Source: Peptoniphilus duerdenii ATCC BAA-1640
GTDB lineage: Bacteria; Bacillota; Clostridia; Tissierellales; Peptoniphilaceae
Length of the DNA: 64,000 bases
Reading direction: 5' to 3'
NCBI RefSeq assembly: GCF_000146345.1
Contig: NZ_GL397071.1
Coordinates: forward strand, 1,151,948 to 1,215,947
The notes under the pieces are model-generated. The model saw only the letters and a list, made by a program, of their open reading frames with translations. It was not told where the DNA came from and ran no database searches. This document shows positions 14,748-60,354 of the stretch, piece after piece (position 1 is the first letter of the stretch; each line of letters begins with the position of its first letter). A program made the translations under genes and the position numbers.

Positions 14748-14889
14748 AAGTGCTCAAGAAATTTGAGCGAAAGAGTGCCTAGGGATCCGTACTATGTAAA
14801 GGACCAAGCGGCACAGTGCTATGCACTACACCGAAGGGACAAAAGCCCAGGAGGATAGGTTTCGCTGACCTATCTTTCTGGGCTCTTTT
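14748..14889 (+). ncRNA. ykkC-class riboswitch (PRPP-type, subtype 2b) with terminator
   Basis: Contains the ykkC landmarks GTGCCTAGGGATCCG (14775-14789), GGACC...GGCAC (14801-14814), the ACACCGAAGGGACAAAAGCCC block (14827-14847) and AGGAGG. An added 5' hairpin, GCTCA...TGAGC (14752-14768), is the extra P0 helix that distinguishes PRPP and ppGpp sensors from guanidine-I sensors. The downstream purine genes argue for PRPP. The 3' side of the aptamer (GCCCAGGAGGATAGGT) can pair with ACCTATCTTTCTGGGC, followed by TCTTTT (to ~14889), to form an intrinsic terminator. Ligand binding should therefore favour the aptamer and read-through. Confidence 0.85.
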
Positions 14890-14914
14890 AATGAAAAATT
14901 TTAAGGAGTGTATT

Positions 14915-15598
14915 ATGAAAACAATTTACGAAGGTAAGACAAAAAACGTTCTAGAATCAGAAGATGGAAAGATATTTTTAAAATTCAAAGATACCATGAC
15001 TGGCACAGATGGTGTATTTGATACAGGCGGAAATGAAGTAGCCGGATCTATCGAAGGAGCAGGTAGCGAATGCTTAAAAGTTTCCAAATTCTTCTTTGAA
15101 AAACTTCGTGAAAAAAATGTAAAGAGCCACTATGTTGACTCAGATTTAGAAAACAACTTAATGGAAGTTGAACCTATTACAATCTTTGGAAAGGGACTTG
15201 AAGTTATCACTAGATTTGTAGCAGTAGGATCATTTATAAGAAGATACGGAAGCTACATTGAAGAAGGAGCATCACTTCCAGGATACACAGAGATAACATT
15301 AAAAGATGATGATAGAAATGACCCACTAATCACAAAAGAAGGACTCGTAGATCTAAACATCTTAACAGCAGAAGAATATGACGAAATCGTAAGACAAAAT
15401 CTTGAAAATGCAAAGATCATAAGAGACATTCTTGAAGAAAAAGGACTTAAACTTTATGACATCAAACTAGAATACGGAAGAAGAAAAGAAAACGGAGAAA
15501 TAATTTTAATTGACGAAGTAAGTGGTGGAAACATGAGAGCATACAAAGATGGCAAGTACATCGAACCACTTGAACTTTCTAAATATCTAGGTATTTAA
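14915..15598 (+). CDS. purC: SAICAR synthetase
   Basis: Phosphoribosylaminoimidazole-succinocarboxamide synthase, joining aspartate to CAIR in purine synthesis. 227 residues. It begins IYEGKTKNV (ATP loop), with VITRFVAVGSFIRRYG and LIDEVSGGNMRAYKDG, the family signature near the C terminus. The open frame extends back through the riboswitch, but AAGGAG at 14903-14908 marks the ATG at 14915. First gene of purC-E-F-M-N-H. Confidence 0.95.
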   Translation: MKTIYEGKTKNVLESEDGKIFLKFKDTMTGTDGVFDTGGNEVAGSIEGAGSECLKVSKFFFEKLREKNVKSHYVDSDLENNLMEVEPITIFGKGLEVITRFVAVGSFIRRYGSYIEEGASLPGYTEITLKDDDRNDPLITKEGLVDLNILTAEEYDEIVRQNLENAKIIRDILEEKGLKLYDIKLEYGRRKENGEIILIDEVSGGNMRAYKDGKYIEPLELSKYLGI

Positions 15599-15621: not shown

Positions 15622-16098
15622 ATGAGAGTTTCAGTTATTATGGGTTCTATTTCTGACAAAGAAATAGCTGACAAAGTAGTTAAGAAATTAAAATCATTTG
15701 ATATAGAAACAGAAGTTAAAGTAATCTCTGCTCACAGAGCTACTAAGCTTCTTGAAGAATATGTAAAATCTGCAGAAGAAGAATCAAAGGTATTCATAGG
15801 AATCGCAGGAAAAGCTGCTCATCTAAGCGGAGTTATTGCTGCCATGACCACAAGACCTGTAATTGGAATCCCAGTTAAAAGTTCTACTTTAGGTGGACTT
15901 GAAGCACTACTATCCACAGTAGAAATGCCTAGTGGAGTACCAGTAGCAACAGTTGCTATAAATGGCGGAGAAAATGCTGCTATACTAGCTGCAGAAATCC
16001 TAGCAGTTTCAGATGAAAATTTAAGAAACAAACTTAAACAAATGAAACTAGATATGGAAAAAAAGATTAAAGAAACTGAATATGTTTACGAGGATTAA
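15622..16098 (+). CDS. purE: N5-carboxyaminoimidazole ribonucleotide mutase
   Basis: 158 residues. VIMGSISDKEIADK at the N terminus and ISAHRATKLLEEY form the substrate pocket; AGKAAHLSGVIAAMTTRPVIGIP and STVEMPSGVPVATV complete the PurE fold. Converts the carboxylated AIR intermediate to CAIR; the partner purK is not in this window. Ribosome site GGAGAAAG before the ATG. The purF gene follows after three bases. Confidence 0.94.
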   Translation: MRVSVIMGSISDKEIADKVVKKLKSFDIETEVKVISAHRATKLLEEYVKSAEEESKVFIGIAGKAAHLSGVIAAMTTRPVIGIPVKSSTLGGLEALLSTVEMPSGVPVATVAINGGENAAILAAEILAVSDENLRNKLKQMKLDMEKKIKETEYVYED

Positions 16099-16101
16099 AA
16101 T

Positions 16102-17394
16102 TTGAGCGCAATATTTGGAGTTTTTTCTCAAAGAAAAAATAAAAATGTATTTTTAAGAATTTATGCCGGTCTCTATGCCCTTCAACACAGAGGGCAAGAG
16201 GCTATGGGCATCTGTCTAATCGAAAATGAAAAGATATCTGAGATTAAGGGAAGAGGATTAGTATCTGACAATATAAAACACGACAATAAGAATAGCATCG
16301 GAGGATACGCAGGAATTGGTCACGTTAAATACGAATACTCTGACGATGATATAACTACCCTACCTATGCCTTGGCAATACTATCCAGATGGCAAGGACCA
16401 AGTAATAATCGCAGTAGACGGTAAATTCTTAGACGATAGAGATGTAGAAGAGATAGCTGGAGTTTTAAACGGACCAATCGAAAAAATTCCAGAATATATT
16501 CTAAACCTTAAGGGAGCATATTCAATTATCTTTGCAAAAAAAGATATGATGATTGCAATAAGAGATCCCCATGGAATAAAACCACTTTCAATGGGTAAGG
16601 TTGATTCAGAAATAATATTCTCAACAGAAACCTGCGGAATCACAGGTTCAGATGCAGAAGTAGTAAGAGATCTTCAACCTGGAGAAATAGTAGTAGTTAC
16701 AAAGGACGAAGTGAAATCACTAAGAGCGGGAAACTTCACAGCAACTCCATGCGTCTTTGACTTCGTGTACACAGCAAGACCAGATTCATTTATAAATGGA
16801 ACGAGTGTATATAGATCAAGAATAAAAATGGGCATGGAACTCTTTGAAGAAGCTCCAGTAGAAGCTGATATTGTAGTGGGATCACCAGACTCTGGTATGA
16901 TTTCAGCACTTGGATTTGCGAGAGCTTCAGGAATAAGTTACGAAAAGGCAATAGTTAGAAATAGATATATTGGAAGGACATTTATACTTCCATCAGATGA
17001 AATGAGAAAAAAAGGCGTGAAGATGAAATTATCGCCTATTAGATCACTTATTGATGGTAAGAGAGTTGTCCTTGTTGATGACTCAATAGTAAGAGGTAAC
17101 ACTATAAAACACGTCATCGAAATACTAAAAGATTCTGGAGCAAAAGAAATTCATGTTAGGATTGCAAGTCCACCAGTTATTAGATCAGAATCTCTTACAT
17201 TCGATGTGCCAAGCCCAGAAAAATTGATAGCAAACGGAAAAACTGTAGAAGATATACGCGAATATATAGGAGCAGATTCCCTTGCATACTTAAGTCTAGA
17301 CGGACTAAATAAAGCCTGTGGCAATGGTAAGTTCTATGAAAGATGTTTTGGTGGATATGATCCATTTGAAGAAGGAGATGAAGATGTCAATTAA
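16102..17394 (+). CDS. purF: PurF-like amidophosphoribosyltransferase with a degenerate glutaminase site
   Basis: 430 residues, first step of purine synthesis (PRPP to phosphoribosylamine). TTG start at 16102, immediately after the in-frame purE stop, so no longer N terminus is possible. The Ntn-type glutaminase half is recognisable (LYALQHRGQEAMGI), but its catalytic residues are changed. The essential N-terminal Cys is Ser2, the Arg of the RYxT segment is Lys76, and the conserved NG is D106-G107. The Asp-bearing SDTE segment is missing. The phosphoribosyltransferase half is intact (VVLVDDSIVRGNT, residues 322-334). Cys ligands of the Bacillus-type [4Fe-4S] cluster are mostly absent. Likely uses free ammonia. 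Confidence 0.88.
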   Translation: MSAIFGVFSQRKNKNVFLRIYAGLYALQHRGQEAMGICLIENEKISEIKGRGLVSDNIKHDNKNSIGGYAGIGHVKYEYSDDDITTLPMPWQYYPDGKDQVIIAVDGKFLDDRDVEEIAGVLNGPIEKIPEYILNLKGAYSIIFAKKDMMIAIRDPHGIKPLSMGKVDSEIIFSTETCGITGSDAEVVRDLQPGEIVVVTKDEVKSLRAGNFTATPCVFDFVYTARPDSFINGTSVYRSRIKMGMELFEEAPVEADIVVGSPDSGMISALGFARASGISYEKAIVRNRYIGRTFILPSDEMRKKGVKMKLSPIRSLIDGKRVVLVDDSIVRGNTIKHVIEILKDSGAKEIHVRIASPPVIRSESLTFDVPSPEKLIANGKTVEDIREYIGADSLAYLSLDGLNKACGNGKFYERCFGGYDPFEEGDEDVN

Positions 17395-18409
17395 TTACAA
17401 AGATTCTGGCGTAGATGTTGAAGCTGGAGCAAAGGAAGTAAAACTTATAAAAGGTATGGTAGAAGCGACCCATGGGAAGGAAGTTCTATCATCAATAGGT
17501 GGATTTTCTGGGCTATTCAGTCTAGAAAGTATGGACTATAAAAATCCGGTACTAGTTTCTGGAACAGATGGGGTAGGTACCAAGGTTATCATTGCTCAAA
17601 GCATGGATATTAATGACACAGTTGGGATAGACTGTGTTGCTATGTGTGTGAATGATATACTTTGCCAAGGTGCAAAACCATTATTTTTCTTGGATTATAT
17701 TGGAACTGCAAAGCTTGAACCTCATAGAATGGCAGAAATTGTAAAAGGTGTGACAGAAGGTTGTAAGATTTCAAATATGGCACTAATCGGTGGTGAAACT
17801 GCAGAGATGCCAGGAGTTTATCATGGAGAGGACTATGATTTAGCTGGATTTGCTGTTGGAATCGTGGATAAAGATAAAATCATCGATGGTTCTACAATCG
17901 AAAAGGGAGATATAATATTTGGTCTTTCATCTTCTGGAATACATTCAAATGGATATTCATTAGTTAGAAAGATAGTCTCTGAAAGATCAGGACATGAATT
18001 AACAGATAAGGTAGAAGGTTTAGAAAAATCTCTTGGGGAGACACTTCTAACACCTACTAGAATCTATGTAAGAGAAATGTTAGACCTAATGGCAAAAGTT
18101 GATGTCAAAGGCGCTTGTCATATAACTGGCGGCGGATACTATGAAAATATACCTAGAATGATGCCAAAGGGACTGACAGCAAGTATAGATGTAACAAATG
18201 TAAAGATTCCATATATCTTTGAACTTTTAAAGAAATGGGGAAATCTTGAACTAAGAGAAATGTATAGCACATTTAATATGGGTCTTGGAATGGTATTTGT
18301 AGTTAAAGAATCTGATAGAGAAAAGGTGCTTCAACATTTCAAAGATTACGACTCTATCTACGAAATCGGAAAAGTTGTAGATGGCGATGAAATTGAACTC
18401 AAATATTAA
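17384..18409 (+). CDS. purM: phosphoribosylformylglycinamidine cyclo-ligase (AIR synthetase)
   Basis: 341 residues, the exact family length when started at the ATG 17384 (GGAG 8 bases upstream, within purF); an earlier in-frame ATG would add 22 unrelated residues. Motifs: MSINYKDSGVDVEAG (N-terminal signature), SGTDGVGTKV, GAKPLFFLDYI and GGETAEMPGVY. Closes the imidazole ring using ATP. Overlaps purF by 11 bases and purN by about 29. Confidence 0.95.
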   Translation: MSINYKDSGVDVEAGAKEVKLIKGMVEATHGKEVLSSIGGFSGLFSLESMDYKNPVLVSGTDGVGTKVIIAQSMDINDTVGIDCVAMCVNDILCQGAKPLFFLDYIGTAKLEPHRMAEIVKGVTEGCKISNMALIGGETAEMPGVYHGEDYDLAGFAVGIVDKDKIIDGSTIEKGDIIFGLSSSGIHSNGYSLVRKIVSERSGHELTDKVEGLEKSLGETLLTPTRIYVREMLDLMAKVDVKGACHITGGGYYENIPRMMPKGLTASIDVTNVKIPYIFELLKKWGNLELREMYSTFNMGLGMVFVVKESDREKVLQHFKDYDSIYEIGKVVDGDEIELKY

Positions 18410-19004
18410 AGTAGCTGTCCTAGTTTCTGGTTCAGGCTCAAATCTTCAAGCAATAATAGATGCTTCGAAAAATGATAGAGATTTCGGAGCTGAAGTTGTA
18501 CTTGTAATCTCAAATAGAGAAAAGGCATATGGACTAAAACGGGCAGAGTTAGAAAACATAGACCACTTCTGCATTAAAGACAATGAAGAAGTACTTAAAA
18601 AATTAAAAGAATACGAAGTAGATTTAGTAGTCTTGGCTGGATATTTAAAGATAATTCCAGAAAGCATAATAGACGAATTTCCAAATAGAATTATAAATAT
18701 ACATCCATCGCTAATACCATCTTTTTGTGGAATGGGCTACTATGGAATAAAAGTCCATGAAGCTGCCATAGAAAGAGGCGTAAAGGTAAGTGGTTGCACC
18801 ACCCATTTTGTAAATAAAATGGCGGATGCAGGTCCAATTATCTTGCAAAAGGTAGTGGATGTAGATTTTTCCTATGATGCGGATAGATTACAACAAGAAA
18901 TTTTAAAGGAAGAACATAAAATTCTACCAGAATCCATAAAATTATTCGCCCACGGAAAGCTAGAAGTAGTAGGAAATAGAGTAAAAATAAGGAGTAATAA
19001 TTGA
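18381..19004 (+). CDS. purN: glycinamide ribonucleotide formyltransferase
   Basis: 207 residues. N-terminal AVLVSGSGSNLQAIID binds GAR phosphate. The catalytic Asn-His-Asp set is in INIHPSLIPSFCG and TTHFVNKMADAGPIILQ. Adds the formyl group from 10-formyl-tetrahydrofolate. The start could be ATG 18381 or 18387, both inside purM; neither has a strong ribosome site, so it probably relies on coupling to purM translation. Confidence 0.93.
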   Translation: MAMKLNSNIKVAVLVSGSGSNLQAIIDASKNDRDFGAEVVLVISNREKAYGLKRAELENIDHFCIKDNEEVLKKLKEYEVDLVVLAGYLKIIPESIIDEFPNRIINIHPSLIPSFCGMGYYGIKVHEAAIERGVKVSGCTTHFVNKMADAGPIILQKVVDVDFSYDADRLQQEILKEEHKILPESIKLFAHGKLEVVGNRVKIRSNN

Positions 19005-20521
19005 TGCGTGCACTAATTTCAGTATATGACAAAGAAGGAATCGTAGAATTTGCAACCGAGCTTGAAAAACTTGGCTACGAAATAGTAAGTACAGGTGGAA
19101 CATACAAAAAATTAAAGGATAGCGGTTTAAAAGTAATAGAAATTGATGAAGTTACAAAATTTCCAGAAATTTTAAACGGAAGAGTTAAGACGCTAAACCC
19201 TCTTATCCATGGAGCAATCCTCTATAAGAGAGATAATGAAGAACACGTAAAGACTGTAAATGAACATAACATTACATCCATAGATATAGTTGTAAACTCA
19301 CTATATCCATTTGAAGAATGCCTAAAGAGAGGCGCTTCTCACGATGAAATGATTGAAAATATAGATATCGGTGGACCATCTATGATTAGATCCGCTGCAA
19401 AAAACTACAAAGACGTACTAATCGTAACTAATAGAAATCAATATGACGAAGTACTTAAGAGATTAAAAGAAAATAACTGCGACGAAGAATTTAGATTCTC
19501 CCTTGCAAAGGAAGCTTTTAATCTAACTGCAAGATACGACAGTCTAATCGCTGGATACTTCAATTCATTCGGCGAAAAAGAAGAATTTGAAAAGATACTT
19601 GAACCTAGGTATGTTTTGAAAGAAGTCCTAAGATATGGAGAAAATCCACATCAAAAGGCAGCTTTCTATGAAGAAGAAAATATAGACAAAGTTGAATATA
19701 AAGTTCTCCATGGAAAACAAATTTCCTACAACAATCTAAACGATATGTACGGAGCAATAAAAGCTCTTAAAAACTTCGGAGATATTCCAACTGCAATTGC
19801 AGTTAAGCACACCAACCCATGTGGAATGGGCACCGGTTCTACTTTGGCAGAAGCGTTTAGAAAAGCATACGAATGTGACGACGAAAGTATATTCGGGGGA
19901 ATCATCGCTCTAAATAGAGAAGTAGATCTAGAAACTGCAGAGATGCTTTCAAAAATCTTCCTAGAAATCGTAGTGGCACCATCATTTGCAAAAGATGCCT
20001 ACGAACTTTTGGCTAAGAAGAAAAATATCAGACTTATCGAAATGCCAAGAATCAACGATTTTGAAATAAAGATGTCTGTTAAAGAAGTTTTAAATGGACT
20101 TATCGTTCAAGAGTATGATAATGTTGATTTAGATGAAGATAAACTTGAAGTAGTGACTAAGAGAAAACCTACAGAAGAAGAAATGAAGGAACTTAGATTT
20201 GCTTGGACTGCTGTTAAAGCAAGTGCATCAAACTCTGTTGTTGTAGCTAAAAATGGTGGAACACTTGGAATTGGTCAAGGTCAAACCAAGAGATCTTGGG
20301 CAGTTGAAGAAGCTCTTGAAAGAGCAGGAGATAAGATCGAAGGAGCAGTGTTTGCATCAGATGGATTCTTCTTTAAAGATACCATGGAACTTTTAAATAA
20401 ATACGGCATCAAGGCTATAATAGAGCCAGGTGGATCTGTAAAAGACCCTGAAGTCATTGAATTTGCAGATGCTCATGATATGTCAGTAGTCTTTACTCAT
20501 ATCAGACATTTTAGACACTAA
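19004..20521 (+). CDS. purH: bifunctional AICAR transformylase / IMP cyclohydrolase
   Basis: 505 residues, final two steps to IMP. N-terminal IMP cyclohydrolase domain (RALISVYDKEGIVEFA, STGGTYKKL, LHPLIHGAIL-like NPLIHGAILYKR). C-terminal transformylase has AVKHTNPCGMGTG with the KH catalytic pair, and ends MSVVFTHIRHFRH. ATG at 19004 overlaps the purN stop; a TTG three bases earlier is an equal alternative; ribosome site GGAG at 18991-18994. Last gene of the cluster: purD, purL, purB and purA are not here. Confidence 0.95.
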   Translation: MRALISVYDKEGIVEFATELEKLGYEIVSTGGTYKKLKDSGLKVIEIDEVTKFPEILNGRVKTLNPLIHGAILYKRDNEEHVKTVNEHNITSIDIVVNSLYPFEECLKRGASHDEMIENIDIGGPSMIRSAAKNYKDVLIVTNRNQYDEVLKRLKENNCDEEFRFSLAKEAFNLTARYDSLIAGYFNSFGEKEEFEKILEPRYVLKEVLRYGENPHQKAAFYEEENIDKVEYKVLHGKQISYNNLNDMYGAIKALKNFGDIPTAIAVKHTNPCGMGTGSTLAEAFRKAYECDDESIFGGIIALNREVDLETAEMLSKIFLEIVVAPSFAKDAYELLAKKKNIRLIEMPRINDFEIKMSVKEVLNGLIVQEYDNVDLDEDKLEVVTKRKPTEEEMKELRFAWTAVKASASNSVVVAKNGGTLGIGQGQTKRSWAVEEALERAGDKIEGAVFASDGFFFKDTMELLNKYGIKAIIEPGGSVKDPEVIEFADAHDMSVVFTHIRHFRH

Positions 20522-37973: not shown

Positions 37974-39194
37974 TTATGCTCTTTCTCTATAAATAGGCAT
38001 TGACATACATCTTGGGCCCCCTCTACCTCTAGAAAGTTCCCCTGACTTCATAATGTGAAGTGTAACACCGTGATCTCTAAGAATTTGGTTTGTAACAACG
38101 TTTCTATCGTAAACAACTACTTCTCTTGGTGCGATAGCTAAAGTATTGTATCCATCTGACCATTGTTCACGAGAAGCATCTAGTAGTCCACCAGAACCTT
38201 GACGAATAAGGTCAACCTTATCAAGGTGAAGGTTCTTTAGAAGCACTTCTTCGATATCAGAAGATTCTTCTTCAGTGTGTAGGTTCTTGCCGTCAAATGT
38301 AATTCCGAAACAAGTTAGAGAATCTTCGATTTCTGGGTGAACGGTAAATAAATCTCTATCCACCATTGTAAATACTGTATCTAGGTGCATGAAGGCACGT
38401 TTCTTCGGAATTGAAAGGACAAGAATCTTTTTAAATCCAGTTTCTTCTCTTAGAACTCTCTTAGCAAATTGTTCGATTGCACGGGCAGAAGTTCTTTCAG
38501 AAGTACCTACAGCTATAAGTTCATCGCTTAGCACTAGGATGTCTCCGCCTTCGATTGATGCTGGAAGTTCTCTATTGTAGTGAAGATCTTCGTCTTTTAT
38601 TTTAAAGTCGTTGTGATATTTGAAAATATACTTGCCAAATAATGTTTCGCGTCTTCTAGTTTCGCTCCACATATGGTTTAGAGAAACGCTGTGACCTATA
38701 AGAGAGAATGGGTCTCTAGTGAAGTATAGGTTTGGCATTGGTTTTGTAACGAAAAATTCATCCTTCTCGATTATTTCTGGAAGGGAAGTCTTCTTGTAAT
38801 CAGGAAGATCAGATTTTCTAATTCCTCCCATCATTTTAAGAACGAGTTCCTTATTTTCCATATTTTGGAAAAGTTCTTTTAAGATTTCTTTTTCTCTGTC
38901 AACTTGGATGTCAGATTCTTTTAAGAATTCGTCTATACAAGCTTCTTTGATTCCTGAATCTGTAAGTGACTCTGCTGCTAAATCTTCTAAATAATAAACT
39001 TCGCATCCATTGTCTCTTAAGATTTGTGCAAAGTAATCATGTTCTTCGACTGCAGCATCTAGAAATGGAATTTCGTCGAATAAAAGTTCACCTAGTTGAT
39101 CTGGAGCGAGGTTTGTAAGCTCGTGACCAGGTCTATGAAGAATAACTTTTTTTAATTTTTCAATCTCTGAGTAAACATTAATATTTTTGTTCAT
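37974..39194 (-). CDS. arcA: arginine deiminase
   Basis: Hydrolyses arginine to citrulline and ammonia. 406 residues from the ATG at 39194, which has AAAGGAGAAC upstream; a TTG 15 bases earlier lies in that ribosome site and is rejected. Guanidino-group modifying fold: LKKVILHRPGHEL at the N terminus, MPNLYFTRDPF, SIEGGDILVL, MHLDTVFTMVD with the catalytic His, and the catalytic Cys in the C-terminal GGPRCMSMPIYRE. Its own unit: a terminator separates it from the upstream minus-strand genes. arcC and arcD are not in this window. Confidence 0.96.
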   Translation of the reverse strand: MNKNINVYSEIEKLKKVILHRPGHELTNLAPDQLGELLFDEIPFLDAAVEEHDYFAQILRDNGCEVYYLEDLAAESLTDSGIKEACIDEFLKESDIQVDREKEILKELFQNMENKELVLKMMGGIRKSDLPDYKKTSLPEIIEKDEFFVTKPMPNLYFTRDPFSLIGHSVSLNHMWSETRRRETLFGKYIFKYHNDFKIKDEDLHYNRELPASIEGGDILVLSDELIAVGTSERTSARAIEQFAKRVLREETGFKKILVLSIPKKRAFMHLDTVFTMVDRDLFTVHPEIEDSLTCFGITFDGKNLHTEEESSDIEEVLLKNLHLDKVDLIRQGSGGLLDASREQWSDGYNTLAIAPREVVVYDRNVVTNQILRDHGVTLHIMKSGELSRGRGGPRCMSMPIYRERA

Positions 39195-39269
39195 AAGTTC
39201 TCCTTTCAACTAACTTAATTTTAGATTAAATTAAATTTATTTTTTTGTCAACATGACAAGAATTTAAAA

Positions 39270-39301: not shown

Positions 39302-40396
39302 TTAACTATTCAAAGCTCTATCTATGTTTCTTATGAAGTCTTGTACATTAGTAACCATTGAAACAGCTGTTAGAGTTCCTCTGTCGGAAAGTTTGTTTAC
39401 AGCGAATTCTTGAATATCAACTGTATACATGTAAACAGGTCTTATCACTCCGTCAAACTCATTGTAAGATGGGGTCATGTTTCCAGTTGCTATTGTGTAA
39501 AGAATAGCTGAAAGCATTATGATTGTTGAGGTACGTCTAGCGTGGGTCCTCATCTTGTTTTGAGCTTCGTAAACATTATCGATAGTTTCTGGTAGTGCTA
39601 ATCTATCTCTAATTGTACCAGCCATTACTACTTCAGTGCCACATTCTATGGCAGCCTTCATGAAACCGTCCTTTACAAGACCAGATTCAACAAGAGCTTT
39701 AGTTGAGCCATATTTTCTTGCGAGATTTATAGTTTCATATAGGTTTACTGTAGTATTTTGTTCGTGAACGAAATGTTCTTGTCCCCAAGTGGTTCCGTAG
39801 ATTCCGCGTTCTAAGTCGAAGGCAGCAGTTTCTGTACCACAGAAGATTGCTTGAACATATCCGTTTCTAATAAGTCTTTCAAGAGCAAGTCTTGCATCTT
39901 CATCAAGGGCGATTGCAGAACCGATAATCATAGTTACATATCCGTTGTTTGCTTTTTCGTGACGAAGAACATCGTAAAGTGTATCGTAGTCAACGGAGAA
40001 GGCAGTTTCTCTTGATCTTCCAGCTCTAAAAGCAAAAGTATCAAGCTCTTCAGACTCTTCTAAGAATCCGCCGGTCCACATGTAGATCCCTTCAGAACCA
40101 TCTTCGGTTCGTCCGATTACAACCTTGTCACCTTTTTTTAGATTTCTAAATTCTACAATGTTAACGGATTCTTCACCAGGTGTGTCGTTTGCAACACAGA
40201 CAGTATCCATTCTAGACTGGGTAGCTAAAATCCATTTGCCATTTATTTTAAAATATTCTGGATAAACAGAAAGTGCGTGGTAATGTCTTGGGCTTATGCC
40301 ATCTACTTTAACTTCTTCTAAATGAACATTAGGTGCATTTTTTAGAAATTCTTGTTCGAAATCTGGATGATGGTACTTAGGCATTTGAAAATCCAT
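39302..40396 (-). CDS. TIGR00300 / ornithine cyclodeaminase-family protein, divergent subunit
   Basis: 364 residues. Shares colinear blocks with the adjacent paralogue: GRTEDGSEGIYMW, AGTIRDRLALPET, VIRPVYMYTVDIQEFAVNKL and MVTNVQDFIRNIDRAL. These are landmarks of the family also found as the C-terminal part of cyanobacterial AgrE/ArgZ and in archaeal ornithine cyclodeaminase, which converts ornithine to proline and ammonia. The family's strong AGSIRDDGPLPEV block is altered here (RLALPET), so this copy may be a non-catalytic or regulatory partner. The ATG abuts the stop of the upstream paralogue. A role in ornithine disposal is inferred from the arginine genes around it. Confidence 0.7.
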   Translation of the reverse strand: MDFQMPKYHHPDFEQEFLKNAPNVHLEEVKVDGISPRHYHALSVYPEYFKINGKWILATQSRMDTVCVANDTPGEESVNIVEFRNLKKGDKVVIGRTEDGSEGIYMWTGGFLEESEELDTFAFRAGRSRETAFSVDYDTLYDVLRHEKANNGYVTMIIGSAIALDEDARLALERLIRNGYVQAIFCGTETAAFDLERGIYGTTWGQEHFVHEQNTTVNLYETINLARKYGSTKALVESGLVKDGFMKAAIECGTEVVMAGTIRDRLALPETIDNVYEAQNKMRTHARRTSTIIMLSAILYTIATGNMTPSYNEFDGVIRPVYMYTVDIQEFAVNKLSDRGTLTAVSMVTNVQDFIRNIDRALNS

Positions 40397-41571
40397 TATA
40401 GCAATCCTCCTTCTTCATTTTCTCTTCTTTTATTTTCTAGTTCAACGTATTCTTCTTCAGGAAGCTCCATTTCATTTGCAAATGTCTTGTCAGCCGGAGT
40501 AACAAGAGCACGTTCTAGATTTACAACGAAGTCTTGTACGTTTGTAATCATAGGAACGAAGGCAATATTTTCTCTAGCATGAGCCATTTTGTTTGCTACG
40601 TTTTCTGTAACGTCGATTCCGTACATATATACAGGAGTAATATCTCCGTTTTCTCTAATTCTATAACTTGAAGCAAGATTTGCTGCAGCTAAGTTGTGAA
40701 GCATAGTAGCAAGTCCTATTATAAGAGTTGCTTTGTCAAGATGCTCTTTCATGTGGGTTAGACCTTCTGTTGTGTTTCCATATACTTCAGGAAGAGGTCC
40801 ATCATCTCTAATGGATCCAGCAAGTACAAAAGGTACGTCCATTTGTGAAAGTGTCTTTATGATACCATCTTTTACATTTCCTTCAGCAATGAATTTTTTA
40901 ATAGATCCAGCAGATCTAACTTCGTTTAGAAGGTCAAGGTGATTGTAGTGTCCGTTAGGTACGTTTTGTTGAGTGTAGATATTTTGTCCAAGGGCAGTGC
41001 CTAAGAATCCACCTTCAAGATCGTGGGTTGCCATTGCATTACCAGCCATTAAGCAGTTGATGTATCCAGCTTCAGCTAAGTGGTTTAATGCAACTCTTGT
41101 ATCGTGGTCAAATACCACTGAAGGTCCAAGAACCCATACGATGTATCCGCCGTTATCTCTTTCGTATTCCATTTGTTCGAAAAGGAATTTATAATCTCTT
41201 GAAAAAGAAGTTTCAACGGCTTGACCAGGTTCAGAATATACTGATTTAGGGAAACCTTCTTTATATACTAGTACACCATTAGAACCGTCTTTAGTTCTTC
41301 CGGTTACGACTTGTTCACCTTTTTTAAGATCTCTAATTTCTTTTATAAGGATGTCACCATCTTTAAGAACTGCAACGCAGTTAAGTGAGTTATGTTCTGG
41401 TAGTAACCATTCTCCATCTACTTTGTAGAATGTTGGTAGGTGAGTTGTAAGATAAAAATTATCTGGCGCAACTCCATCTTTTTCTACTTCAGCAACAGTT
41501 ATATTTTTTGCATTTTTATAAGCCTCATTTGAAAAATCAGGCTTTTCAAATATTGGTAAATGAAATTTCAT
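40396..41571 (-). CDS. TIGR00300 / ornithine cyclodeaminase-family protein, canonical subunit
   Basis: 391 residues. Retains the family's consensus AGSIRDDGPLPEVY and GYIVWVLGPSVVFDHDTR, with TPVYMYGIDVTENVANKMAH and ITNVQDFVVNLERAL toward the end. A Glu-rich C-terminal tail of ~25 residues follows. First gene of a two-gene unit with its divergent paralogue; start preceded by GAGGAGGCAGT. Likely acts on ornithine made from arginine by the deiminase and carbamoyltransferase nearby, perhaps producing proline as an electron acceptor for Stickland fermentation. The pathway placement is inference; the family is recognised from conserved blocks. Confidence 0.72.
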   Translation of the reverse strand: MKFHLPIFEKPDFSNEAYKNAKNITVAEVEKDGVAPDNFYLTTHLPTFYKVDGEWLLPEHNSLNCVAVLKDGDILIKEIRDLKKGEQVVTGRTKDGSNGVLVYKEGFPKSVYSEPGQAVETSFSRDYKFLFEQMEYERDNGGYIVWVLGPSVVFDHDTRVALNHLAEAGYINCLMAGNAMATHDLEGGFLGTALGQNIYTQQNVPNGHYNHLDLLNEVRSAGSIKKFIAEGNVKDGIIKTLSQMDVPFVLAGSIRDDGPLPEVYGNTTEGLTHMKEHLDKATLIIGLATMLHNLAAANLASSYRIRENGDITPVYMYGIDVTENVANKMAHARENIAFVPMITNVQDFVVNLERALVTPADKTFANEMELPEEEYVELENKRRENEEGGLL

Positions 41572-59439: not shown

Positions 59440-60354
59440 ATGGTTAGGAATTTGATTGAACCTCGTGATTTCACAACTGAAGAGTTAAGTAGACTTTTTG
59501 ATCTGGCTGATGACATTATTTCAAACCCACGTAAGTACATGGATGTTTGTAAAGGATATGTCTTAGCCAGTCTTTTTTTTGAGCCTTCAACTAGAACCAG
59601 ACTTTCATTCGAAACTGCAATGAATAGACTCGGTGGTAGAGTAGTAGGTTTCTCAGATGCAAAAGTTTCTTCAACTTCAAAGGGAGAATCACTAGTAGAT
59701 ACTCTAAGAACTGTAGAAAACTACGCGGATATCTGTGCGATGAGACATCCTAAGGACGGGGCAGCACTACTTGCTACCAAGTACTTAAAAACTATGCCAA
59801 TTATAAACGCTGGAGATGGAGCCCATAACCATCCAACTCAAACTTTAACAGACTTACTTACTATAAGACATTATAAAGGAAGATTTGACAACTTAAAGAT
59901 AGGATTCTGCGGCGACTTAAAATTCGGTAGAACCATCCACTCACTTGTAAGGGCGATGAACAGATATGACAATGTAAAATTTGTATTCATAAGCCCAGAA
60001 GAATTAAAGATGCCTAAGATTTTTAAAAGTGAACTACCAGAAAATTCTTATACTGAAACAGATGACTTAGAAGGAAGCATAAAGGACCTAGACATCCTAT
60101 ACATGAGTAGAGTTCAAAAGGAAAGATTTGTTTCAGAAGAAGAATATGTAAGATTAAAAGATTTCTTCATACTTAACAAAGAAAAACTAGACCTAGCTAA
60201 GAAGGATATGATCGTTATGCATCCTCTACCAAGGGTAAATGAAATTTCATACGATGTAGATGATGATGAAAGAGCAGTATACTTCCAACAAGCAAAATTC
60301 GGAATGTACGTAAGAATGGCACTTATAATGACACTTCTAGGATTGGAGGCATAA
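59440..60354 (+). CDS. pyrB: aspartate carbamoyltransferase catalytic chain
   Basis: 304 residues. Carbamoyl-phosphate site [21 protein letters not shown] and the aspartate-side loop, together with [12 protein letters not shown] and [10 protein letters not shown]. First committed step of pyrimidine synthesis. Two bases later begins pyrI, so the enzyme is the regulated pyrB/pyrI holoenzyme type. Confidence 0.95.

Follow-up and report, generated by a model that had tools for sequence, protein, structure and literature searches.

The purF gene in the window (the whole stretch of 64,000 nucleotides of Peptoniphilus duerdenii DNA that was analyzed) encodes an amidophosphoribosyltransferase-family protein with a decommissioned glutaminase domain, and we infer, with a probability of roughly 85%, that this protein is a working PurF that forms phosphoribosylamine from PRPP and free ammonia rather than from PRPP and the glutamine amide; no activity data are available. 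Purine synthesis otherwise opens with a textbook glutamine reaction. The initial annotation had proposed the same ammonia-dependent synthesis, an inference that was supported by the loss of the glutaminase site, the intact PRT half, the finding of a sole PurF, and the placement of the gene in a pur cluster. Of the known activities of PurF, ammonia-dependent phosphoribosylamine synthesis is the one left to a protein that has kept its PRT site but not its glutaminase site. As an account of one enzyme, however, this reading was too narrow: the loss spans much of the family and in some members reaches PurL, GuaA, and PyrG.

Residues and predicted fold of the window PurF

The gene (16102..17394, + strand) is an open reading frame of 430 amino acids with a TTG start. 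The TAA stop codon of purE (16096-16098) lies in frame with purF and is followed by the single codon AAT and then by the TTG; thus, the protein begins Met-Ser-Ala-Ile-Phe-Gly, and no space remains for an upstream in-frame start or Cys. The earlier statement that the TTG directly follows an in-frame stop missed this one codon, but its consequence, a fixed N terminus, held. A misread N terminus was ruled out, as the in-frame TAA fixes the start and relatives carry the same Ser, and a sequencing error at Ser2 was excluded because Ser is found again at the nucleophile position in dozens of PurF relatives. The protein passed the TIGR01134 model narrowly (354.9 bits, cut-off 350), with the best-matching stretch in the C-terminal part from residue 132, and Pfam models detected the PRT domain over its cut-off along with a marginal piece of class II glutaminase (GATase_7, 26.3 versus 25 bits, residues 108-177). 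When the 2.1-Mb window genome (15 contigs, stated to be 100% complete) was searched with TIGR01134 for a second, intact purF, as the initial annotation had advised, only this PurF (in two pieces of a single frame) and a 634-aa GlmS were obtained.

The alterations that had been claimed for the glutamine site were all present. Ser2 (codon AGC, 16105..16107, + strand) occupies the position of the Cys1 nucleophile, Lys76 (16327..16329, + strand) stands where 54 of the 54 Cys1/Asn101 PurFs read have Arg in the motif GHVRY, and Asp106-Gly107 (16417..16422, + strand) replaces the oxyanion Asn-Gly pair. The catalytic-Asp loop that should follow is deleted: the KGAY motif is separated from the (D/N)G pair by 30 residues, versus 52 in a Cys-type relative (L012), a shortfall of about 22 residues around the place of the usual catalytic Asp. 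We take the numbering Arg73, Asn101, and Asp127 used here to be that of E. coli PurF; counted directly, a further Cys-type relative (L019) has R73, N102, and D127. The PRPP-binding loop VVLVDDSIVRGNT (residues 322-334; 17065..17103, + strand) is intact, as had been stated, and its DDSIVRG core is common to every row of the PurF alignment.

An AlphaFold2 model of the window PurF was built from the window protein together with 38 loci of named genomes. This model (mean pLDDT 89.1) had solved PurFs as its closest structures (Z 40.9-44.5), with 1ao0 giving a Z of 44.5 and an rmsd of 2.5 over 413 residues. The alignments to 1ao0, 1gph, and 1ecb all open with residue 2 of the model paired to residue 1 of the solved chain, which places Ser2 at the nucleophile position; as predicted by this model, the two-domain PurF fold is kept, with Ser where the nucleophile belongs. 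The window PurF shares its whole fold, PRT half, PRPP loop, and pur neighborhood with the enzymes of E. coli (1ecb/1ecf) and B. subtilis (1ao0/1gph), but differs from them in having no Cys nucleophile, Asp for Asn, Lys for Arg, and a deleted Asp loop. It meets the criteria for the PurF family (TIGR01134 score, fold and PRPP loop, and pur neighbors) and meets none of those for a glutamine-dependent PRPP amidotransferase (EC 2.4.2.14), namely the N-terminal Cys, the oxyanion Asn-Gly, the glutamine-loop Arg, and the Asp loop. Because TIGR01134 passes the protein even though its glutamine-site residues are gone, routine annotation hides the change. Also among the structural matches of the model was beta-lactam synthetase (1jgt, 1mb9), which has the class II amidotransferase fold in a domain that is no longer a glutaminase; whereas that enzyme carries out a new reaction, the window PurF probably catalyzes the original one with another nitrogen donor.

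In the alignment with 38 other PurFs, four further positions (217, 363, 412, and 415) are Cys in 38, 37, 37, and 37 of them, respectively. Two of the four are lost in the window PurF, which keeps Cys217 and Cys415 and has Glu363 and Tyr412. We presume that these positions are perhaps the Fe-S ligands of B. subtilis PurF; if so, the Fe-S cluster of the B. subtilis-type enzyme has probably been lost in the window protein.

Purine cluster and possible ammonia supply

The window purF lies in a cluster ordered purC-like, purE, purF, purM, purN, and purH, all on the + strand: purC-like (14816..15598; TIGR00081 95.5 bits, cut-off 189.9, domain from about residue 35 of the open reading frame), purE (15622..16098; TIGR01162 192.4 bits), purM (17384..18409; ATG start, overlapping the end of purF; TIGR00878 444.8 bits), purN (18381..19004; TIGR00639 188.4 bits), and purH (19001..20521; TIGR00355 574 bits). 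The purC-like protein, at half its family cut-off, is a divergent SAICAR synthetase. Elsewhere in the genome, beyond the window, a single gene fuses purD with purL and encodes a protein of 1627 aa (L203:1859-6739, equivalent to G000:C1:382858-387738; TIGR00877 448 bits, TIGR01857 1538.6 bits). Fifteen of the genomes searched have PurL frames of 1629-1675 aa, and the purD-purL fusion may be widespread in a portion of the family.

For the proposed release of ammonia from arginine and ornithine, the enzymes were confirmed at the level of family models. An arginine deiminase gene (37974..39209, - strand) scored 490.3 bits with NF002381, over the cut-off, and 488.4 bits with TIGR01078, slightly below the cut-off of 489.1; adjoining it are tandem genes for two putative nickel-pincer-nucleotide-dependent ornithine cyclodeaminases (39302..41571, - strand; NF052526 447.3 and 445.3 bits, cut-off 440). 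All three are possible ammonia sources. The window also carries ornithine carbamoyltransferase and aspartate carbamoyltransferase (59440-60354). In the window genome the glutamine synthetase domain PF00120 was not found (it was matched in 14 of 14 control genomes), there was no CarA-type glutaminase among the three PF00117 matches, and no carbamoyl-phosphate synthetase large subunit exceeded its cut-off (best 28.9 bits); carbamoyl phosphate may be derived from the arginine deiminase route in this organism. The catalytic Cys is kept in GlmS (read in this genome only), PurL, GuaA, and PyrG, so the organism seems still to use glutamine elsewhere, and a whole-cell end of glutamine use was ruled out.

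Catalysis with NH3, the route that ammonia takes, and its supply by amino-acid fermentation are all inferred for the window PurF. Free ammonia would join PRPP at the PRT site to yield phosphoribosylamine, arriving either through the remnant domain or directly, and fermentation by way of arginine deiminase and the ornithine cyclodeaminases could supply enough of it to make glutamine hydrolysis superfluous. Should the family indeed run on ammonia, metabolic models, auxotrophy predictions, and expectations for glutamine-analogue inhibitors would change. Ammonia-rich habitats are documented within the Peptoniphilaceae: Microaceticoccus formicicus came from a high-ammonia digester (PMC12079837), and Miniphocaeibacter halophilus is called ammonium-tolerant in a title in the reference list of that paper.

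Precedents exist in part. In E. coli PurF, substitution of Ala or Ser for the Cys leaves no detectable activity with glutamine, but ammonia can still be used as donor (Mei and Zalkin 1989, cited by Brown et al. 2011, PMC3261824); the predicted outcome for the window PurF is the same, with ammonia and not glutamine as donor, but the engineered enzyme retains the rest of its glutaminase site. The same paper describes crenarchaeal PurF', a PurF-like protein without Cys (often Ala or Val) encoded near purine genes, and the PurF-like Mlab_0150 of Methanocorpusculum labreanum with Ser for Cys, each a second copy beside a Cys-bearing PurF. The window PurF matches PurF' in lacking Cys, but has no Cys-bearing companion by TIGR01134; it is the sole PurF found, has Asp101, and belongs to a type that extends across much of a bacterial family. 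Single-domain NadE naturally uses free ammonia where its relatives use glutamine, a trait described as likely ancestral (PMC3376133), whereas the window PurF would have come to use ammonia secondarily, by losing a glutaminase site that it once had. Although these archaeal second copies and the ammonia use of NadE were already known, among the matches listed in a search of the open-licence literature (subscription papers lay outside it) we found neither a description of a Cys-less PurF as the only copy in a bacterium nor an account of glutaminase sites being lost jointly across PurF, PurL, GuaA, and PyrG.

PurF among the relatives

The survey covered 61 genomes (that of the window and 60 relatives) and 130 genomes of the family, in which 141 PurF loci were read; 138 were usable after three fragments (L058, L140, and L151) were dropped. 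Ser together with Asp at position 101 was seen in 58 of the 138 rows, and Ser was by far the commonest replacement of Cys1; other relatives have Gly, Ala, or Val. Among the 71 Cys-less PurFs (five divergent MGxFF sequences excluded), position 101 is Asp in 61, Asn in 7, Ser in 2, and Glu in 1, versus Asn in 54 and Asp in 8 of the 62 with Cys1. Within the family, six of the 130 genomes gave no match and 111 had a readable PurF, or 106 without the divergent ones; 66 of these (23 genera) lack Cys1 and 40 (12 genera) retain it, with certain genera containing both types. Some divergent or partial matches (G112, G116, and G122-G125) stand outside these counts. When named GTDB genomes were compared, their 80 nearest PurFs were Cys/Asn in 77 cases and Ser/Asp in 3, the latter from Miniphocaeibacter massiliensis (Peptoniphilaceae), a Tepidimicrobium MAG (Tissierellales), and a MAG labeled Anaerolineaceae. 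Across the class, 285 of 291 genomes gave a match; among the best-scoring matches listed, nearly all start at model position 1 (no residues were read) and a second copy in one genome (G413) starts at position 3.

A tree of the PRT part alone was built from 130 rows and 217 columns, without the divergent MGxFF sequences (L059-L062 and L152) and three second copies (L040, L046, and L050); it is a quick tree in which some long branches meet. The best tree required nine changes of the Cys state and seven of the Asn state, and the well-supported branches alone force five changes for the Ser/Asp class and four for Cys/Asn. Parsimony is blind to loss versus regain, but repeated regain of the full site is unlikely. 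Asp101 with Cys1 retained occurs at two places on the tree. Of eight species in genus g3, seven carry the Cys/Asp combination and the other carries Ser/Asp, and a Cys/Asp sequence (L016) is sister to a Ser/Asp sequence (L014) with a support of 88, which suggests that the change of Asn101 to Asp preceded the loss of Cys in that genus. After correction for kinship, the Cys1 and Asn101 states gave 3.3 concordant and 0.0 opposite of six pairs, too few for significance.

Within-genus comparisons yielded median dN/dS values of 0.116 (PRT) and 0.160 (GATase) for 87 pairs of Ser/Asp PurFs, with maxima of 0.649 and 0.884, versus 0.048 and 0.055 for 67 Cys/Asn pairs. The Ser/Asp figure is inflated by two Ser/Asp sublineages in genus g25, dS exceeds 1 in many pairs, and no pair comes from the genus of the window. 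As judged from these sequence comparisons, both halves of the Ser/Asp PurFs are under purifying selection that is somewhat relaxed. Medians well under 1 argue that the remnant glutaminase domain is kept for something; by inference, this could be folding, an ammonia path, or regulation.

These results bear on other explanations of the window PurF. Other amidotransferases commonly have their glutaminase as a separate subunit, and the window genome retains glutamine-using enzymes with intact Cys, so a dedicated glutaminase might dock on PurF and keep glutamine as the donor in the cell. We consider this improbable: the PF00117 matches are only GuaA, PyrG, and a 255-aa putative C26-type hydrolase, PF13507 matches only the PurL domain (families such as PF04960 lay outside the search), and no additional gene intervenes between purE, purF, and purM. 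It is scarcely credible that the N-terminal Ser is itself a working nucleophile and that the changed site goes on hydrolyzing glutamine or a different amide. Ntn hydrolases that act on other amides through Ser1 do exist, and the prevalence of Ser among the replacements would fit such a role, but the oxyanion Asn has become Asp, the short forms have lost the Asp loop, the same position is Gly, Ala, or Val in other relatives, and the Cys-to-Ser variant of the E. coli enzyme was without detectable glutamine activity (PMC3261824).

The gene could also be decaying or merely regulatory, with purines obtained by salvage. The larger dN/dS medians of the Ser/Asp pairs and the family members without a PurF over threshold point that way, yet the gene keeps an open reading frame and an intact PRPP loop, the genome carries purC, purE, purM, purN, purH, purD, and purL (purB and purK were outside the search), and medians far below 1 in both halves are unlike those of pseudogenes; this explanation is very doubtful. 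We retain ammonia-dependent synthesis of phosphoribosylamine as the preferred reading.

Two other PurF groups were observed. The MGxFF sequences, which are PurF-like and very divergent with no Cys and no NG pair, occur in genera g7, g15, g24, and g35 as the best PurF match of those genomes. A lineage from five g25 species and from g20 (L127-L130, L132, and L057) has Val for Cys, keeps Asn, and has Trp for Arg in the motif GALWYSS; it is another route to loss of the glutaminase site.

Glutaminase sites of PurL, GuaA, and PyrG

The glutaminase of PurL/PurQ has another fold (class I, Cys-His-Glu) that is unrelated to that of PurF. Of the 56 genomes read, 14 have another residue in place of its nucleophile Cys (G002, G013, G017, G019, G027, G028, G029, G030, G034, G037, G039, G041, G056, and G057), a PurL broken by stops (G025) being excluded. 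All 14 have a Cys-less PurF, and none of the 29 Cys-PurF genomes has lost the PurL Cys. For the 52 genomes with an alignable PurF (4 divergent and 5 PurF-less genomes were left out of the association tables, and states were scored by hand), the PurL Cys was lost in 14 and kept in 9 with Cys-less PurF, compared to 0 and 29 with Cys PurF (Fisher p 4.6e-7, kinship ignored); within the family, the loss was found in 9 of 18 versus 0 of 10 (p 0.0098, kinship ignored). Kinship-corrected pairs (3.1 concordant and 0.0 opposite of five) went in the right direction but were too few for significance.

The GuaA glutaminase was lost in 12 of 22 Cys-less versus 4 of 29 Cys-PurF genomes (p 0.0027) and, within the family, in 8 of 17 versus 0 of 10 (p 0.012), kinship being ignored in both tests. 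The losses take the form of an absent glutaminase domain (open reading frames of 316-336 aa), absence of most of it (418-436 aa), or replacement of the Cys only. In the scoring, a GuaA with an odd motif (G026) was counted as intact, a genome with no GuaA over the cut-off (G027) was dropped, and two (G004 and G051) were scored by the length of the reading frame. The four Cys-PurF genomes of the order with a lost GuaA glutaminase (G044, G051, G060, and G048, the last with Asp101) make the PurF-GuaA link weaker. In two of them (G060 and G044; loci L254 and L255), a GuaA without its glutaminase domain occurs beside a normal Cys PurF.

PyrG residues were read for 13 relatives, all with Cys-less PurF, and for the window genome; Cys-PurF genomes contributed full-length scores only, without a residue control. 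The PyrG Cys was lost in 4 of the 13 relatives (G017, G027, G029, and G034), all of which have also lost the PurL Cys, and the second PyrG copy of G013 lacks it too. Across the group, glutamine sites seem to have been given up stepwise, with PurF preceding PurL and, in the genomes read, PyrG the last to go; the genome of the window stands early in this retirement. The natural series from Cys/Asn through Cys/Asp and Ser/Asp to the shortened domain, and then to PurL, GuaA, and PyrG, lets the retirement of an ammonia-channeling domain be followed.

A stepwise retirement of glutamine sites in amino-acid-fermenting anaerobes would fit a broader, tentative proposal. In the Tissierellales, and above all in the Peptoniphilaceae (including Miniphocaeibacter), purine synthesis may have switched on several occasions from glutamine to free ammonia, with ammonia-rich cells retiring the sites of PurF, PurL, GuaA, and finally PyrG, which represent two unrelated glutaminase folds; the recurrent change of Asn101 to Asp, in two lineages with Cys still present, might not be decay but a gain in which the carboxylate captures ammonium where the old channel opens. 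Taken jointly, we would sooner expect some part of this proposal to fail than all of it to hold.

Loss of glutamine synthetase was considered as a cause and rejected. The raw counts were suggestive, with PF00120 absent from 17 of 23 Cys-less versus 3 of 29 Cys genomes (p 3.1e-6) and, within the family, from 40 of 66 versus 7 of 40 (p 1.7e-5), kinship again being ignored. The association failed correction for kinship, as neither a GuaA-synthetase tree (2.1 concordant and 0.0 opposite of five pairs) nor the PurF tree (0.8 agreeing and 0.7 opposing of four pairs) gave significance, and 26 of the 66 Cys-less family members have the gene.

In both M. massiliensis (L304) and the Tepidimicrobium MAG (L316), a purL encoding Gly in place of the nucleophile Cys lies two genes upstream of the Ser/Asp purF, in the order purL, purE, purF, purM, purN, purH, and purD; purL and purF were assigned by family model and the other genes were read from their N termini.
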